34,591 nucleotides of DNA. Source: Pseudomonadota bacterium. GTDB lineage: Bacteria; Pseudomonadota; Gammaproteobacteria; GCA-001735895. Positions within the stretch are counted from its first letter, which is position 1; each line of letters begins with the position of its first letter. Location: the NCBI GenBank assembly GCA_022563685.1, contig JADFMY010000020.1:1-34591 (forward strand). Direction: 5' to 3'. Shown here one piece after another: positions 2,635 to 16,500 of the stretch. A program made the translations under genes and the position numbers. The notes under the pieces are model-generated. The model was not told the DNA's origin, ran no database searches, and was given only the letters and a program-made list of their open reading frames with translations.

Positions 2635-2785
2635 AGGAACTCCCAAAAAAAGTTAACACTAACTTATTTATTTTTAAAATATTCGTCAAACGTTTCTTAG
2701 ATTATTCTTTCTAGTTTATCTTCATTATGGCCATGTATAGTTTTATTGCACTTATGTTCCACCAGTATTTTAGGCTGATTTAGTA

Positions 2786-2881
2786 ATGGATGAGGCTGGT
2801 GTTGATTTTCGTGTAACCAAAGATTTTAACATTGTGCTTTGTGTCGAGGCACTGGATACGAGCTTTGCTGATGCGTTCTGA
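2786..2881 (+). pseudogene. Remnant of a nucleotidyltransferase-type gene
   Basis: A 31-codon frame reads GVDFRVTKDFNIVLCVEALD followed by TSFADAF and a stop. The segment [AT]RxTKDxDIVL...EALDxxFAxAF is the signature I associate with AbiEii-like nucleotidyltransferases that are usually paired with a HTH partner. In this remnant the central Asp of the expected DxDIV is Asn (DFNIV). Only the first part of the domain remains. It is fused end to end with a remnant of the HTH partner family, which confirms decay by deletion. The assignment comes from motif memory, not a search. Confidence 0.5.
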
Positions 2882-3032
2882 ACCTTTATTTAAATCGGCA
2901 CCCTATGCTGTACGGCAGGATGCAGAGTTGTATGCATTGTTGGCTTTGGTCGACGCAATAAGGATTGGCCAGCCCCGCGAGCACAATTTAGCGATTAAAC
3001 TTCTGGGTAAGCATCTGGGGAATGTGCAGTGA
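2877..3032 (+). pseudogene. Remnant of a HTH (MarR-like) partner protein, C-terminal third
   Basis: From the Ser codon at 2877 the frame encodes EPLFKSAPYAVRQDAELYAL, then LALVDAIRIGQPRE and a short tail. It aligns at roughly 60% identity with residues 124-170 of the HTH-MNT protein at 14661 (PLYKSAP, LYELLALVDAIR, RE). The N-terminal HTH part is missing. The open frame can be extended upstream only by reading the nucleotidyltransferase remnant in the wrong frame. It ends 22 bp before the metallophosphoesterase start. Confidence 0.7.
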
Positions 3033-3054
3033 GGAATGCCGAACCTCGCCTACC

Positions 3055-3852
3055 ATGAAAATCCAGTTGCTGAGCGACCTGCACAACGAATTCCTGCGAA
3101 ACGGCAAAACCAGTCCAAACCACTTATGGTCGGGTTCAATACCAGAAACAGATGCGGACATTATCATTCTGGCAGGTGATATCGATACCGGTATAAGCGG
3201 TGCCGAGTGGGCGATTTCAGAATCGGAGCGCCTTGAAAAAAATATTATTTATGTGTTAGGTAACCATGAGTTCTATGGTCACGAATACCATAGCATGAAG
3301 GAAAAAATTTCAAAACAATGTAAAGGTACAGGCGTGCATTGTCTGGATCCTGATGTGTATGTTGAAGATGATGTGCGATTTATCGGTGCCACCTTATGGA
3401 CCGATTATACGGCCGATATCAGCGTGCCCCAGGATCTGGCTATGTTCTATGTAGATAAAGCACTGATGGATCACAGGGTGATTAAATACAGGTCGGGCGA
3501 TTCGTATCGAAGATTTAAACCGCATGATGCGCTTGCGATCCATTTAAAAGAATTAAACTGGTTAAAGCAGAAATTAGACAATCATCATCAAGGCAAAATA
3601 GTGGTTGTGACCCATCACGGCCCCCATCCCGTATGCCAGCATCCGGACTATTTAGTTAATGAAATGAGTGCTGCTTTTCATTCAGACCTGGGTCATTTGA
3701 TCGCAAAAAATGATATTGATGTATGGGTGTATGGCCATACCCATGCCAATCTGGATAAAGTAATTTTTGATACTCGTATTCTCTCTAATCAGGCGGGTTA
3801 TCCGGGGGAAAATGTGCGGGGCTTTGATGCTGGTTTTACGATTGAATTATAA
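3055..3852 (+). CDS. Calcineurin-like metallophosphoesterase, copy A
   Basis: A 265-residue protein with the complete metallophosphoesterase ligand set in order: SDLHNEF (D8, H10), AGDID (D42), LGNHE (N70, H71), VVTHHGPHP, and YGHTHAN near the C-terminus. Two metal ions would therefore be bound and a phosphoester hydrolysed; the substrate is unknown. No signal peptide is visible, so it is probably cytoplasmic. The start at 3055 is chosen because it aligns exactly with the start of copy B at 13636. An in-frame ATG at 3022 with tgggga upstream would add 11 residues. The two copies are about 80% identical over full length. It follows the HTH/nucleotidyltransferase remnants, and copy B likewise sits beside a member of that HTH family. 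Confidence 0.85.
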   Translation: MKIQLLSDLHNEFLRNGKTSPNHLWSGSIPETDADIIILAGDIDTGISGAEWAISESERLEKNIIYVLGNHEFYGHEYHSMKEKISKQCKGTGVHCLDPDVYVEDDVRFIGATLWTDYTADISVPQDLAMFYVDKALMDHRVIKYRSGDSYRRFKPHDALAIHLKELNWLKQKLDNHHQGKIVVVTHHGPHPVCQHPDYLVNEMSAAFHSDLGHLIAKNDIDVWVYGHTHANLDKVIFDTRILSNQAGYPGENVRGFDAGFTIEL

Positions 3853-5507: not shown

Positions 5508-5756
5508 CTAATTTGACGGTAAGATCAATTCAACTTCCGCGAATTGCGCGGTCTGATCTTTGATCCGTCCCTGCTCGACAAACACGGCCAGCTCAGGATA
5601 AGAGAGCCCGACGAGATTGGGGTCGCCCTTGAACAAGATTAACGAAATCAACTGCGCATAGCCAGGATGGCTGACCACGATATGGATATGACGCGCGCCC
5701 CATACGCCGGGCGCGCCCGGAATGTACCCGAGTATGTTTTCATAAGTATTAATCAT
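5508..5756 (-). pseudogene. Intradiol ring-cleavage dioxygenase-like fragment (C-terminal half)
   Basis: 82 codons containing GVWGARHIHIVVSHPGY and LFKGDPNL. This matches the iron-ligand region R-x-HIH-x-x-V-x-x-x-GY and the following LxFxGDP of catechol or protocatechuate intradiol dioxygenases. Only the C-terminal part of the fold is present (families are about 180-300 residues), and the upstream Tyr ligands are missing. The first codons (MINTYEN) lie inside the repeat array, so the 5' part appears to have been replaced by the array. It is probably non-functional. Confidence 0.45.
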
Positions 5757-5942
5757 TTTTCACAATACCTTCCAGGAATTGATGGTTTCTCATAAGTTTT
5801 AATCATTTTTCACAGCTCTTAGGAGAAAATAATCGTTTCTCATAAGTTCTAATCGTTTTTCACAGTTCTTAGGAAAAAATAATCGTTTGTCATAAGTTCT
5901 AATCATTTTTCATAATAACAGCGATATTTAATCATTTTTCAT
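5737..5942. repeat. Direct repeat array, exact 50-bp period, upstream of fic
   Basis: The unit cataagttctaatcattttt starts at 5741, 5791, 5841 and 5891, exactly 50 bp apart, with 1-3 changes between copies. A partial fifth copy lies at 5925-5942. Within each unit the sub-motif AATCRTTTYTCAYA occurs twice, giving about eight boxes at alternating spacings of about 20 and 30 bp, that is whole numbers of helical turns. The array ends 18 bp before the fic start codon. This arrangement suits cooperative protein binding (an operator array) or a repetitive leader RNA. It is not a CRISPR: the intervening sequences also repeat. Confidence 0.8.
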
Positions 5943-5960
5943 GGATATTGAATCGATACC

Positions 5961-7520
5961 ATGACACTATGCGAGTCGTTCGATAAGCTAAATTCACAAA
6001 TATTGAATATTCACCTCACAAATATATTGCCTGAAGCAAAAGCTAAGCCTGCTGGTTACATAGCGCTTATATCAAAGTATGAGCTAAAGGTACCATTGCC
6101 TAATTCAATATGCGCAATTGGAGAAAAGCATAAAAAGTATGAAAAAGACCAATGGCGGGTATTTACGCCGAGGCACGAGCCCGAGGATTCTCTTTATGGT
6201 CATCTAACCTTTGCACTTAAGCAGGAAGGTATAGATCTGGCGGTTCTCAAGGCGATTTTTTCTAGAGTCGATTCAGCGGCGATAGTCGATATAGTTCGGA
6301 GAGAACCTACTGGCGCATATAGCCGAAGAATTTGGTTTTTATACGAATGGCTGCTCGATTATAAGTTAGATTTACCAGATGCCAGCCTGGGAAATTATGT
6401 TTTCCTGGTCGATAAAAAAATCCAATATGAAGGCGCATCAAATCGCTCTCGGCGCCATAGGGTAGACAATAATTTACCAGGCCGACGAGGTTTTTGCCCG
6501 TTAATCAAGCGAACAAAAAGGCTGGACCAATATATCGATCTAGATCTATCCCATAAAGCGGAAGAATATATTGGGACAACACATAAAGATCTGATAACTC
6601 GTGCGGCTGCTTTTTTATTACTCAAAGACTCCAAGGCCTCTTACGATATTGAAGGTGAATCGCCACCACATAATCGAATCGCACGGTGGGGTAAAATCAT
6701 TGGGCAAGCAGGTGATAGACCCCTGAATTTCGACGAACTGCAAAACTTGCAAAGTATTGTAATCGTAGATGATCGTTTCACTATGCCTGGCTATCGCAAC
6801 GCGGGAGGGTTTGTTGGCGTGCATGACCGAACGACGGGGATGCCAATTCCAGATCATATTTCCGCACGCGCGGAAGACCTGCATGAATTATTGTCCGGCT
6901 TATTCGAAACCTATGAGATGCTCAAGCAAGCCCAGTATAATCCGGTCTTAATGGCTGCAGTGCTTGCGTTCGGGTTTGTTTTTATACATCCCTTTGAAGA
7001 TGGTAATGGGCGTATTCATCGTTATCTGTTTCATCATATATTAGCCGAAACGTCATTTGTCCCAGCAGGGCTGGTGTTCCCTATTTCTGCGGTCATCCTT
7101 GAAAGAATAAAGGAGTACAGGGAAGTTCTGGAAGCCTTTTCGAAACCTCGGCTTGAATTGATTGAATGGAATCCTACCAGCGATAACAATGTTCAGGTGA
7201 CGAATGAAACAATTGATATGTACCGCTATTTCGACGCGACAAAGCAAGCCGAGTTTTTATTTTCATGCGTTGAAAAAACGGTCAATGAAACCTTACCCGA
7301 GGAAGTTAGATACCTGGAAAAACACGATCGACTTACGAACTTTATTAAGAGCTATATCGACATGCCGGATAAGATGGTTGACATGCTGATACGTTTTCTC
7401 GATCAGAACAATGGGGTTTTATCGAAACGTGCCAGGGAAAAAGAGTTTGTCAAACTAACGGAAAGCGAAGCACAGGCCATTGAGGTGAAATATGCGGAGT
7501 TTTTTCAGGACAACGACTAG
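5961..7520 (+). CDS. Fic domain protein (probable AMP transferase) with N-terminal inhibitory motif
   Basis: 519 residues. The canonical Fic motif HPFEDGNGRIHR is at about 343-354, with the catalytic His and all nucleotide-binding residues intact. A class II inhibitory motif (S/T)xxxE(G/N) appears as SYDIEG at 227-232, so the enzyme should be autoinhibited by an N-terminal helix. Fic enzymes usually transfer AMP from ATP to Ser, Thr or Tyr hydroxyls of target proteins. Residues 1-210 are long and unassigned. Residues 400-519 are helical and may recognise the target or DNA. No adjacent antitoxin is seen, consistent with the built-in inhibitor. Base composition is more AT-rich than the metabolic genes, suggesting transfer. 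The ribosome binding site is weak, and the repeat array directly upstream probably controls it. Confidence 0.9.
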   Translation: MTLCESFDKLNSQILNIHLTNILPEAKAKPAGYIALISKYELKVPLPNSICAIGEKHKKYEKDQWRVFTPRHEPEDSLYGHLTFALKQEGIDLAVLKAIFSRVDSAAIVDIVRREPTGAYSRRIWFLYEWLLDYKLDLPDASLGNYVFLVDKKIQYEGASNRSRRHRVDNNLPGRRGFCPLIKRTKRLDQYIDLDLSHKAEEYIGTTHKDLITRAAAFLLLKDSKASYDIEGESPPHNRIARWGKIIGQAGDRPLNFDELQNLQSIVIVDDRFTMPGYRNAGGFVGVHDRTTGMPIPDHISARAEDLHELLSGLFETYEMLKQAQYNPVLMAAVLAFGFVFIHPFEDGNGRIHRYLFHHILAETSFVPAGLVFPISAVILERIKEYREVLEAFSKPRLELIEWNPTSDNNVQVTNETIDMYRYFDATKQAEFLFSCVEKTVNETLPEEVRYLEKHDRLTNFIKSYIDMPDKMVDMLIRFLDQNNGVLSKRAREKEFVKLTESEAQAIEVKYAEFFQDND

Positions 7521-10401: not shown

Positions 10402-10662
10402 TTATTCATAGTGCGTCCAGAGGCGTAATATTTTTATTGCCTTTTCTTCTTCAAGAACCTGGTAAACCAATCGATGGTGTATATTTATGCGTCTTGAGTA
10501 GGCCCCACTGAGATCGCCAACAAGCTTTTCATATGGTGTTGGATTTTGATAGGGATCTTCCTGGATAGTGGCGAGCAACTCTAGCGCATTAATTTTCAAG
10601 CTGGCTGAGGCCAGTATTTTTGCATCTTTTTTTGCTTGTTTGGTGTAGTAGATATCCCACAT
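10402..10662 (-). CDS. yoeB: Txe/YoeB family toxin (ribosome-dependent mRNA endonuclease)
   Basis: 86 residues from the ATG at 10662, which overlaps the antitoxin stop by one base (taATG). An upstream TTG would add two residues but is less likely. Family features: MWDIYYTKQAKKDA start, YEKLVGDLSGAYSRRIN, HHRLVYQV, and the C-terminal HY pair (LWTHYE) that holds the catalytic His/Tyr of YoeB. YoeB enters the ribosomal A site and cuts mRNA during translation. Overlap with the antitoxin gives translational coupling. The protein looks complete. Confidence 0.9.
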   Translation of the reverse strand: MWDIYYTKQAKKDAKILASASLKINALELLATIQEDPYQNPTPYEKLVGDLSGAYSRRINIHHRLVYQVLEEEKAIKILRLWTHYE

Positions 10663-10904
10663 TACCAATCAAGATCCTTCGAACATTCGTCCAGGTCTGT
10701 ATCCATTCCTTCCCGAATGGAATCTCGCATTCCAGGTACAGATAATAGAAAAAGTGTTTCGTTAATCGCATTCCAGTCATCTTCAGCTAACAGGACTGCA
10801 TTTCCTCTCTTTCCTGTAATTACAATGGGTTGATGGGTTTTAGCAGTTTCATCGATCAATTTGTAAAGCTTTGACCTTGCTTCAGTTGCATTAAGGGTTG
10901 TCAT
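10662..10904 (-). CDS. yefM: YefM/Phd family antitoxin
   Basis: 80 residues: MTTLNATEARSKLYKLID N-terminal DNA-binding/dimerisation half, PIVITGKRGNAVLLAEDDW core strand, then an acidic C-terminal tail (DTDLDECSKDLDW) that would wrap the toxin. It is the first gene of the pair, preceded by caggagatgagca (a good ribosome binding site) and a palindromic operator. In this family the antitoxin, with or without toxin, represses its own promoter. Confidence 0.92.
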   Translation of the reverse strand: MTTLNATEARSKLYKLIDETAKTHQPIVITGKRGNAVLLAEDDWNAINETLFLLSVPGMRDSIREGMDTDLDECSKDLDW

Positions 10905-10969: not shown

Positions 10970-11327
10970 TAAATCTATCAGGCCGGTGACTTTAATTATT
11001 ATTATCGGGTGTACCTGACAATTCGCTTGGCGATGGTGCGGTTGTTGGGGGTGGTTGAGCGGGAGTTGATGCTGGGCGGTAGTCGTAATAGGCAAGGATT
11101 GTTCCGACAACCCTATTGCATTTCCACCGTCCCTGGCGGTCATTCCGGCTCGAGGGCGGGAATGACGGGGTATATTGGGCCGGAATGACAAAAATTGGGG
11201 ACCCCGGCAATTTTAATTATTTTTACAAGTTGAATGTATCATGGTGCCTCAATGAACAATAAAGGTTTTTAATAATGAGTGTCCTCGGAATCCTCCGGTT
11301 TATAGTGTCTATTGGAAGCATTGCTTT
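10970..11327. other. Intergenic stretch with hairpin repeat and a short upstream reading frame
   Basis: No gene is supported. It contains a ttccggct...gggaatgacg repeat (11143-11190). A pair of similar AT-rich boxes near 10983 and 11203 share about 17 of 21 bases (both include tttaattatt). An 18-codon frame starts at 11275 and its stop overlaps the ATG of the beta-lactamase-like gene (ATGA), which could couple translation. Confidence 0.4.
11143..11190. repeat. TTCCGGC-type hairpin repeat, copy 1
   Basis: ttccggctcgagggcgggaa followed by tgacgg and a second half-unit gggccggaatgaca. It matches copies near 12543, 14564 and 16451, always between genes. Confidence 0.65.
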
Positions 11328-13635: not shown

Positions 13636-14433
13636 ATGAAAATTCAGCTCCTGAGTGATCTGCATAACGAGTTTCTAAGAAACGGTGAAAAGAGTCCCGG
13701 TCATAAATGGGCGGGCTCTATTCCAGACACTAATGCTGACATTATTATTTTGGCTGGTGATATAGATACAGGAACAAAAGGTGCTGAATGGGCGATTTCA
13801 GAATCAGAACGCCTGGCGAAAAACATTATTTATGTGTTAGGTAACCATGAGTTCTATGGAAATGAATACTATAGTTTGAAACAAAAAATTTCAAAACGAT
13901 GCGAAGGAACAGGCGTGTATTGTCTGGACCCCGATGTGTACATTCAAGAGGGTGTGCGTTTTATCGGTACAACCTTATGGACGGATTATAAAGCTGATAT
14001 CAGTATGCCCCAGGATTTGATTATGTATTATGTGGATAAAGCCCTGGCTGATCATAAGGAGATTAAATACAAGTCAGGCAATTCATATAGAAGATTTAAG
14101 CCTCTCGATGCGCTTGCGATACACATAAAAGAATTAAACTGGATAGAAAGGCAATTAGACAGTCTTCATGAAGGCAAAACAGTCGTTGTTACCCATCACG
14201 GACCGCATCCTGTCTGTCAACATCCGGTCTATCCTGTCGATGAAATGAGTACCGCTTTTCATTCGGACTTAAGTAGCCTGATCGCAAAAAATGATATTGA
14301 TGTATGGGTATATGGACATACCCATGCAAACCTGGATAAAGTTATTTTTGATACCCGAATTATCTCTAATCAGGCGGGCTGCCCCGGGGAAAATATCAGT
14401 AATTTTAATGCAAGTTTTACGTTCGAATTATGA
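13636..14433 (+). CDS. Calcineurin-like metallophosphoesterase, copy B
   Basis: 265 residues and about 80% identical to copy A at 3055, with all metal-ligand motifs kept: SDLHNEF, AGDID, LGNHEFYG, VVTHHGPHP and YGHTHAN. Both copies are under constraint at the catalytic residues while varying at surface positions, so both are probably functional. No signal peptide. There is no strong ribosome binding site before the ATG. The next gene, 228 bp downstream on the same strand, contains the HTH family whose remnant precedes copy A, so the association has occurred twice. Function is unknown beyond phosphoester hydrolysis. Confidence 0.85.
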   Translation: MKIQLLSDLHNEFLRNGEKSPGHKWAGSIPDTNADIIILAGDIDTGTKGAEWAISESERLAKNIIYVLGNHEFYGNEYYSLKQKISKRCEGTGVYCLDPDVYIQEGVRFIGTTLWTDYKADISMPQDLIMYYVDKALADHKEIKYKSGNSYRRFKPLDALAIHIKELNWIERQLDSLHEGKTVVVTHHGPHPVCQHPVYPVDEMSTAFHSDLSSLIAKNDIDVWVYGHTHANLDKVIFDTRIISNQAGCPGENISNFNASFTFEL

Positions 14434-14563: not shown

Positions 14564-14592
14564 TTCCGGCTCGGGGGCCGGAATGGCGGAGT
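14564..14592. repeat. TTCCGGC-type hairpin repeat, copy 3
   Basis: ttccggc and gccggaa pair perfectly around a tcgggg loop, followed by tggcgg. It lies between metallophosphoesterase copy B and the HTH-MNT gene and may separate their transcripts. Confidence 0.65.
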
Positions 14593-14660
14593 GAGGTAGC
14601 TTGACATTGCCTGCGTAGTTGTTATTCTCTATTCGTGAATTGCGAACAAAGAATATTGAA

Positions 14661-15530
14661 ATGAATTTAAAACCACAGGATATTTTGTTTTTGCTGAAGC
14701 TGGTTTCAGTGGGGAGGAATCCCTGGTCTTTCAATAAGATAGCGCTCGACCTCGGTATGAGCCCCTCAGAAATACATGCAGCTTCCAAACGTACGCTTGC
14801 TGCCAGGTTAGCCATTAAAGAAGGCAGCAATATTTGGCCGAATATGCGGAACCTGGAAGAATTTATATTGCATGGCCTCCAGTACGTTTTTATCCCCGAG
14901 AGGGGTGCATTAAACCGTGGTATGCCAACTGCTTATGCCGCTGCACCAATGGATGCCTACTTTGCGCGAGATAACGAACCACCGCCGGTATGGCCCGACC
15001 CAGAAGGAAAAGTAAGAGGGGAGTCGTTTTCGCCCCTGTATAAATCCGCACCATTTGCAGCGAAGAATGATCCCGCATTATATGAGTTACTGGCCTTAGT
15101 CGATGCAATTCGTGGGGGTAATTCAAGAGAGCGTGAGATAGCTAGAAAGGAACTGAAAATGCGATTTTCTTCTGCAGAAGAAGCAACGAGTAATCAACTT
15201 GTGAATGATCAAGATAAGCTTGTGATTGGTGGATCGCTTGTGGTTTCTCGAACAGCGCTTAAAAAACTGGCGCAACGCTATCATATTCGCCGGCTTGCGT
15301 TATTTGGTTCTGCCGCTCGGGGCCAACTCAACCCGGATAGTGATATTGACCTGCTGGCAGAGTTCGAAAATGGCAAAGCACCTTCACTAGGCGGTATGGT
15401 GAAAATAAACGATGACTTCGTTACCTTGTTCGGTGGCCGAAAGGTAAATGTGTCCACGCCTGCCATATTGAAAAATCCTTATCGTCAACGTGCGATTGAA
15501 AGGGATATAGAAGAACTCTATGCAGCCTGA
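14661..15530 (+). CDS. HTH domain fused to MntA-type nucleotidyltransferase antitoxin
   Basis: 289 residues in two modules. Residues 1-170 match a winged-HTH family: MNLKPQDILFLLKLVSVGR, an HTH at about 20-50 (IALDLGMSPSEIHAASKRTL) and the tail PLYKSAP...LYELLALVDAIR. I know this part mainly as a stand-alone protein. Residues 185-289 form a complete MNT domain with GSX10DXD: G216-S217, then D228 and D230, in LFGSAARGQLNPDSDIDLL. In MntA-HepT systems this enzyme transfers AMP to a Tyr of the HEPN toxin and neutralises it. The stop overlaps the toxin start by 11 bp. The ATG at 14661 is preferred over an upstream TTG because the HTH family starts there. The HTH suggests the antitoxin also regulates its own operon. 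Confidence 0.82.
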   Translation: MNLKPQDILFLLKLVSVGRNPWSFNKIALDLGMSPSEIHAASKRTLAARLAIKEGSNIWPNMRNLEEFILHGLQYVFIPERGALNRGMPTAYAAAPMDAYFARDNEPPPVWPDPEGKVRGESFSPLYKSAPFAAKNDPALYELLALVDAIRGGNSREREIARKELKMRFSSAEEATSNQLVNDQDKLVIGGSLVVSRTALKKLAQRYHIRRLALFGSAARGQLNPDSDIDLLAEFENGKAPSLGGMVKINDDFVTLFGGRKVNVSTPAILKNPYRQRAIERDIEELYAA

Positions 15531-15879
15531 AGACAGGGACCCGGCTTATTTGTGGGATATGCTACAGGCGGCCAGGGAAGTTCAGGCCATGTTGGGTGAT
15601 TACAATCTATCAGAGTTTCTCGCCGATCGTGTTATGTTGAGGGCAATAGAGCGCAGTGTTGAGATTATTGGCGAAGCTGCTCGATGTGTATCTTTGCCCT
15701 GCAAAGATGCTCATCCGGAAATACCATGGCGAGAAATCATTGGTCAACGCAACTTGTTAGCGCATGAATATGGTCAAATCGATCATGAATTGCTTTACAA
15801 AACCGCAATCGACGATATACCCAAACTGGTTGTGCAGATTAATAAATTATTGCCGCCGTTGGAAGAGAACGATTTATGA
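15520..15879 (+). CDS. HepT-type HEPN RNase toxin
   Basis: 119 residues, all-helical HEPN fold. The signature RX4HXY is exact: R77-NLLA-H82-E-Y84 in QRNLLAHEYGQ. Arg and His form the RNase active site, and the Tyr is the residue AMP-modified by MntA-type partners in characterised systems. The upstream VEIIGEAARC segment and IPWREIIGQRN are also typical. The start overlaps the end of the HTH-MNT gene by 11 bp, giving strong translational coupling. Apparently intact and therefore toxic unless neutralised. Confidence 0.9.
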   Translation: MQPEDRDPAYLWDMLQAAREVQAMLGDYNLSEFLADRVMLRAIERSVEIIGEAARCVSLPCKDAHPEIPWREIIGQRNLLAHEYGQIDHELLYKTAIDDIPKLVVQINKLLPPLEENDL

Positions 15880-16450: not shown

Positions 16451-16500
16451 TTCCGGCTCGGGGGCCGGAATGACGATTTGTCGTGTGGGCCGGAGTGGCA
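16451..16500. repeat. TTCCGGC-type hairpin repeat, copy 4
   Basis: The 20-nt hairpin with ttccggc/gccggaa arms is identical to copy 3, followed by tgacg and a second half-unit gggccggagtggca. It marks the right edge of the accessory block. Confidence 0.7.

Follow-up and report, generated by a model that had tools for sequence, protein, structure and literature searches.

Metallophosphoesterase genes beside HTH and nucleotidyltransferase genes in a bacterial contig: a plausible candidate eraser of nucleotidylation switches

Two metallophosphoesterase (MPE) genes of one contig, each lying next to HTH and nucleotidyltransferase (NTase) sequences, raise the question whether such a phosphoesterase may remove what a neighbouring enzyme has transferred, or whether it is found there for other reasons. 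The return of AMPylated HepT, an RNase toxin, to its active state is an open question in the literature (PMC7641770, PMC11586414). According to a 2020 study, the phosphodiesterases that take AMP off HepT 'have yet to be identified' (PMC7641770), a putative phosphodiesterase was postulated for the HEPN-MNT system of Legionella (PMC11586414), and a HEPN survey described a HAD phosphoesterase, not a metallophosphoesterase, in operon with DUF86-type HEPN (PMC3710099). In the literature searched, an incomplete collection, no paper was found in which a metallophosphoesterase is joined with HEPN/MNT modules in such a way. An MPE whose gene adjoins that of a tag-adding enzyme, apparently shares an operon with it or is fused to it is a directly testable eraser candidate.

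The two phosphoesterase loci of the window

The window, i.e., the whole stretch of 34,591 nucleotides analysed here, corresponds to contig C174; the draft genome to which it belongs comprises 2.99 Mb in 201 contigs. The window contains the following features:

2774-2878, plus strand: fragment of an AbiEii-like NTase, 35 codons, homologous to a gene of G016 and ending in TGA
2880-3032, plus strand: C-terminal fragment of a PDC-M21A-type HTH protein (PDLC04515), about 50 codons with its own stop
3055-3852, plus strand: MPE copy A, 265 aa, intact (PF00149, 1.1e-13, 52.5 bits)
13636-14433, plus strand: MPE copy B, 265 aa, intact (PF00149, 5.4e-15, 56.8 bits)
14601-14628, plus strand: sigma70-like promoter of the HTH-MNT-HepT operon, TTGACA-16-TATTCT, recognised by consensus match only
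14632-14646, plus strand: operator-like palindrome TTCGTGAATTGCGAA before the HTH gene, recurring upstream of HTH-family genes
14661-15530, plus strand: PDC-M21A-type HTH fused to a minimal nucleotidyltransferase (MNT) with the motif GSX10DXD (PDLC04515, 2.3e-42; PF01909, 5.3e-11)
15520-15879, plus strand: HepT-like HEPN RNase toxin with the motif RX4HXY, here RNLLAHEY (PF01934, 5e-23)

Both MPE copies belong to PF00149 (cut-off 21.5 bits), whose metal-binding motifs were invariant across the relatives and are intact in copy A (DLH, GDID, GNHE, THH, GHTH) as well as in copy B. The copies share 79% of their protein and 80% of their DNA sequence, and with a dN of 0.11 and a dS of 1.02 they were mostly kept under constraint since their split.

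Remnants of an HTH protein and an NTase before copy A, as proposed in the first-pass annotation, were confirmed. The NTase fragment reads ADLVMDEAGVDFRVTKDFNIVLCVEALDTSFADAF in frame, followed by TGA just before the HTH fragment; it shares 83% identity with residues 27-61 of an intact gene of 260 aa in the congener G016 (E 2.8e-16), and the second Asp of its TKDFD motif is replaced by Asn. Three further intact homologues occur in one other genome of the same family, and all four genes are preceded by a protein of ~330 aa reading as a winged HTH. The NTase fragment had no PADLOC match and is not of the M21B family. The HTH fragment covers positions 157-202 of 205 of the PDC-M21A profile PDLC04515 (E 1.3e-15), thus the C-terminal quarter of the protein, matches residues 125-176 of the intact HTH of the window, and ends 22 bases before the start of copy A. 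The remnants are joined pieces of two different systems. A gene for an ISL3-family transposase (910-2232) adjoins the decayed stretch. In G035 (L184, L185), a pair of AbiEii-like NTase and ~340-aa winged-HTH genes lies directly upstream of a gene resembling, by eye only, BREX PglZ.

Copy B is followed by an intact HTH fused to an NTase, again as annotated at first, and additionally by the HepT gene, which had been missed and which overlaps the HTH-MNT gene. The same three types of protein occur at both copies, but the NTases differ (AbiEii-like versus PF01909 MNT), and the supposed mirrored layout at 13.6-15.5 kb is contradicted by the gene orders, NTase-HTH-MPE versus MPE-HTH-MNT. Segmental duplication was considered as the source of the double pairing and rejected, as outside the MPE frame the DNA flanking the two copies shows no significant similarity, and as the HTH fragment shares 69% identity with its closest full protein, the HTH of G112, but 51% with the one after copy B.

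The MNT motif GSX10DXD is GSAARGQLNPDSDID in the window, and this motif and RX4HXY are both kept in four homologous pairs, the window's included. The same HTH-MNT fusion occurs in G262, G261 and G044, and three HTH genes outside the window carry the form with MNT and HepT. No M21B-type gene was found in the window, the partner of its HTH being MNT plus HepT. The operon looks like a type VII MntA/HepT toxin-antitoxin system; since the pair scored 28.4 and 33.0 bits against NCBIfam equivalog cut-offs of 60 bits, it is termed MntA/HepT-like and not an equivalog. HepT had no sequence match in the PDB.

Between copy B and the operon lies a gap of 227 bp with the promoter-like site and the palindrome. 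The number of sigma70-like sites in the region was at chance level, and the position of the site at 14601 fits. With at most three mismatches the palindrome was detected upstream of 29 of the 44 HTH-family genes, with a mean of 0.88 in shuffled sequences, and upstream of none of the NTase or MPE genes tested, copies A and B among them. It is probably an autoregulatory operator of the HTH protein, and separate transcription of copy B and the operon is likely. For the window site together with the loci L081-L122, the palindrome is given as TTCGNGAATTNCGAA.

Further observations concern the remainder of the window: a dispersed, hairpin-capable repeat of 25 bp, TTCCGGCTCGGGGGCCGGAATGACG, at 11143-11167, 14564-14588 and 16451-16475, and two small frames on the minus strand (10402-10904) resembling, by eye only, a YefM/YoeB toxin-antitoxin pair.

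Recurrence of the gene association elsewhere

Neighbourhoods were surveyed in the same 369 gammaproteobacterial genomes for MPE, HTH and PF01909; the MPE query matched 62 of them and the HTH profile 45. NTases were counted only if confirmed by HMM or Pfam, a scan by regular expression having given mostly false matches. HTH genes lay within 3 kb of an MPE five times, two of these in the window, versus 0.03 expected in the 369 genomes, and PF01909 NTases four times versus 0.48 expected in the genomes carrying an MPE. Because both expected values presuppose that genes are placed uniformly and independently, and leave common ancestry and clustering in islands out of account, the p-values of about 2e-10 (HTH) and 0.0015 (PF01909) are optimistic. 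Most PDC-M21A HTH genes adjoin an M21B nucleotidyltransferase. In a Pfam tally of direct MPE neighbours housekeeping genes lead, and nucleotidyltransferases account for 3 of 147, a figure without M21B, which matched no Pfam model.

Apparent HTH-NTase-MPE operons with overlapping or closely spaced genes were encountered in G064, G282, G341, G830 and on a plasmid of Legionella adelaidensis (NZ_LR134433.1), i.e., in four arrangements from different GTDB families plus the plasmid. Those of G064, G282 and G341 carry an MPE of a sister subfamily that shares 23% identity with copy B. Five of the 12 loci seen of this subfamily are of the HTH-NTase-MPE type; one (G354) has MPE, HTH-MNT and a HEPN-like gene in the order found at copy B, one (G831) an MPE whose frame shares an overlap with the end of a RhuM-Fic gene, two stand beside other toxin-antitoxin-like genes (G834: HigBA-like; DUF4160-like plus HTH), and at three no such neighbour was recognised.

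For the window's own subfamily the link to NTases is rarer, most of its members having other surroundings. One relative (G189) is fused to an MNT in a single frame of 360 aa with another MNT 12 bp upstream, one (G201) is followed by an HTH-MNT fusion, and one (G049) lies 181 bp from a Fic gene. Among own-subfamily relatives outside the window genome no HTH co-occurrence was found and MNT at only two, and at 30 further loci neither an NTase nor an HTH gene lay within 1.5 kb. The nearest relatives, in G172 (61%) and G438 (51%), have neighbours other than NTases: in G438 a second MPE and a HAD-like gene, in G172 two small genes that read as HigBA-like, to which NCBIfam gave no match. MPEs near HipA-like genes were found in G298 and G356. 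A search of 398 genomes of the phylum and of plasmids detected no further full-length MPE-MNT fusion.

The excess of HTH and NTase neighbours around homologues, named in the first-pass annotation as support for a functional link, was thus found, but with strong cases mostly in the sister subfamily; the converse expectation, a pairing confined to this genome, is refuted by G064, G282, G341, G830, the L. adelaidensis plasmid and the MPE-MNT fusion. The co-occurrence of MPE, HTH and NTase is real and recurs, chiefly within the sister subfamily, and it is one toxin-antitoxin context among several. Pure coincidence, two MPE paralogues having ended up close to toxin-antitoxin genes within a single decaying stretch rich in insertions, would fit the debris near the ISL3 transposase gene that neighbours copy A and the unrelated flanks of the two copies; it is already disfavoured by the five HTH genes near an MPE versus 0.03 expected and by the recurrence outside the window genome, and is considered very improbable.

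Fold, proposed role and competing readings

The fold of copy B, modelled with AlphaFold2 (pLDDT 80.7), was compared with solved structures, of which PptH (6unc) ranked first by Foldseek (3.5e-9) and by VIA-align (Z 19.5 over 237 residues, rmsd 3.3; next entry 16.2); the sequence profile of copy B pointed to the same protein (E 1.4e-6). PptH releases phosphopantetheine from carrier proteins by hydrolysing the phosphodiester linkage between them, and it opposes the transferase (PMC8557913). It is a chemical precedent for the removal of AMP from a protein and not evidence that the MPEs of the window do so.

By analogy with MntA/HepT, we infer that the MNT part of the fusion would block the HepT RNase by transferring AMP onto the Tyr of RX4HXY, while the HTH part would repress the operon via the palindrome at 14632. 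The MPE would be the eraser, hydrolysing the phosphodiester bond between the NMP tag and the protein and thereby resetting the switch; for other NTases it would cut the tag from whichever RNA or protein they modify. Copy A would likewise be an eraser, the switch it belonged to having decayed. AMP is also transferred by Fic enzymes, and a Fic-type gene of ~515 aa (5961-7520, plus strand; HPFEDGNGR, by motif scan) lies 2.1 kb downstream of copy A; it is cited as context only, with at most a possible link to the MPE. Fic genes of similar length were seen near an HTH-NTase locus in G080 and 181 bp from an MPE in G049 (loci L118, L134), and just upstream of the window's Fic gene a 50-bp repeat, TTCTCATAAGTTTTAATCATTTTTCA..., stands in three tandem copies (5737-5912).

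A role of the MPE as eraser of nucleotidylation switches, i.e., as a de-AMPylase, is plausible and is put forward tentatively, short of probable. It is preferred here since no other reading explains at once the tight gene arrangements, the fusion and the PptH-like fold. Also in its favour are the excess of HTH and MNT neighbours over chance, the MPE overlapping a Fic gene in G831, the kept metal motifs and the constraint on both copies, and the need for such an enzyme stated in the literature. The 227-bp gap with its promoter-like site and operator counts against it, as do the missing operators before both MPEs, the nearest relatives and 30 loci without NTase, the HipA-like neighbours in G298 and G356, and the housekeeping genes on top of the neighbour tally. 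The MPE appears moreover dispensable, since the HTH-MNT-HepT homologues of G262, G261 and G044 had no MPE match in the stretch examined. The wider proposal, that the family is the missing de-NMPylase of NTase-based toxin-antitoxin switches including HEPN-MNT, with a three-part write/erase system in some lineages, is regarded as rather doubtful.

About equally likely as the eraser role is that the MPE is an independent mobile or defence gene gathering in toxin-antitoxin islands with no biochemical tie to NTases, a serious possibility that we hold short of probable. It would explain why MPEs stand beside so many kinds of conflict genes, HigBA-like (G172, G834), HipA-like (G298, G356), Fic (G049, G831) and DUF4160-like plus HTH (G834), and it agrees with the likely separate transcription in the window, a weak match to the PADLOC profile PDC-S10 (4.7e-9) and the occurrence of relatives both on plasmids (103) and in phage records (93). 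Membership in an island alone, however, does not predict the MPE-MNT fusion, and the four tight HTH-NTase-MPE arrangements in different GTDB families and on the plasmid speak against it. In viral contigs copy B had one distant relative, and neither the sister-subfamily MPE nor the HTH-MNT protein had a confirmed one; a scan of genome contigs gave distant relatives only. The 93 phage records (hits H94-H105) carry relatives of copy B, and in several Rhizobium phages the match also covers a feature annotated as GTP-binding protein.

The MPE might instead process 2',3'-cyclic or other RNA ends, or nucleotides, arising from RNase toxins (HepT, HigB) or RNA-modifying NTases. Unrelated RNase toxins (HepT, HigB-like) are among its neighbours, phages carry relatives, and Rv0805 and the RNA debranching enzyme Dbr1 appear in the fold list for copy B; yet both are outranked by PptH in the fold and profile comparisons, and the M21B neighbours read as nucleotidyltransferases, not RNases, so that this activity is judged unlikely.

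Relation to known systems

In comparison with PptH (Rv2795c of Mycobacterium tuberculosis), the closest solved fold and sequence profile, the MPE of the window is alike in fold to a metal-dependent phosphodiesterase that opposes a transferase by taking a phosphodiester-linked group off a protein; identity is about 18%, and the transferase next to the MPE is not a phosphopantetheinyl transferase. With type VII MntA/HepT (PMC7641770, PMC11586414) the operon shares an MNT with GSX10DXD and a HepT with RX4HXY in overlapping genes, but its MNT forms the rear part of a fusion with a PDC-M21A HTH domain, the pair scores below the equivalog cut-offs, and an MPE lies upstream. The PADLOC single-gene candidate PDC-S10 matches the MPE weakly, the 33.8 bits coming from only a part of its profile. 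The PADLOC phage-defence candidate PDC-M21, composed of the M21A HTH and the M21B NTase, has the same HTH family and the same operator-like palindrome; the window locus matches its M21A HTH (2.3e-42) and not its M21B NTase, in whose place fused MNT and HepT are found, and some of the M21 loci found add an MPE that matches no PADLOC model.
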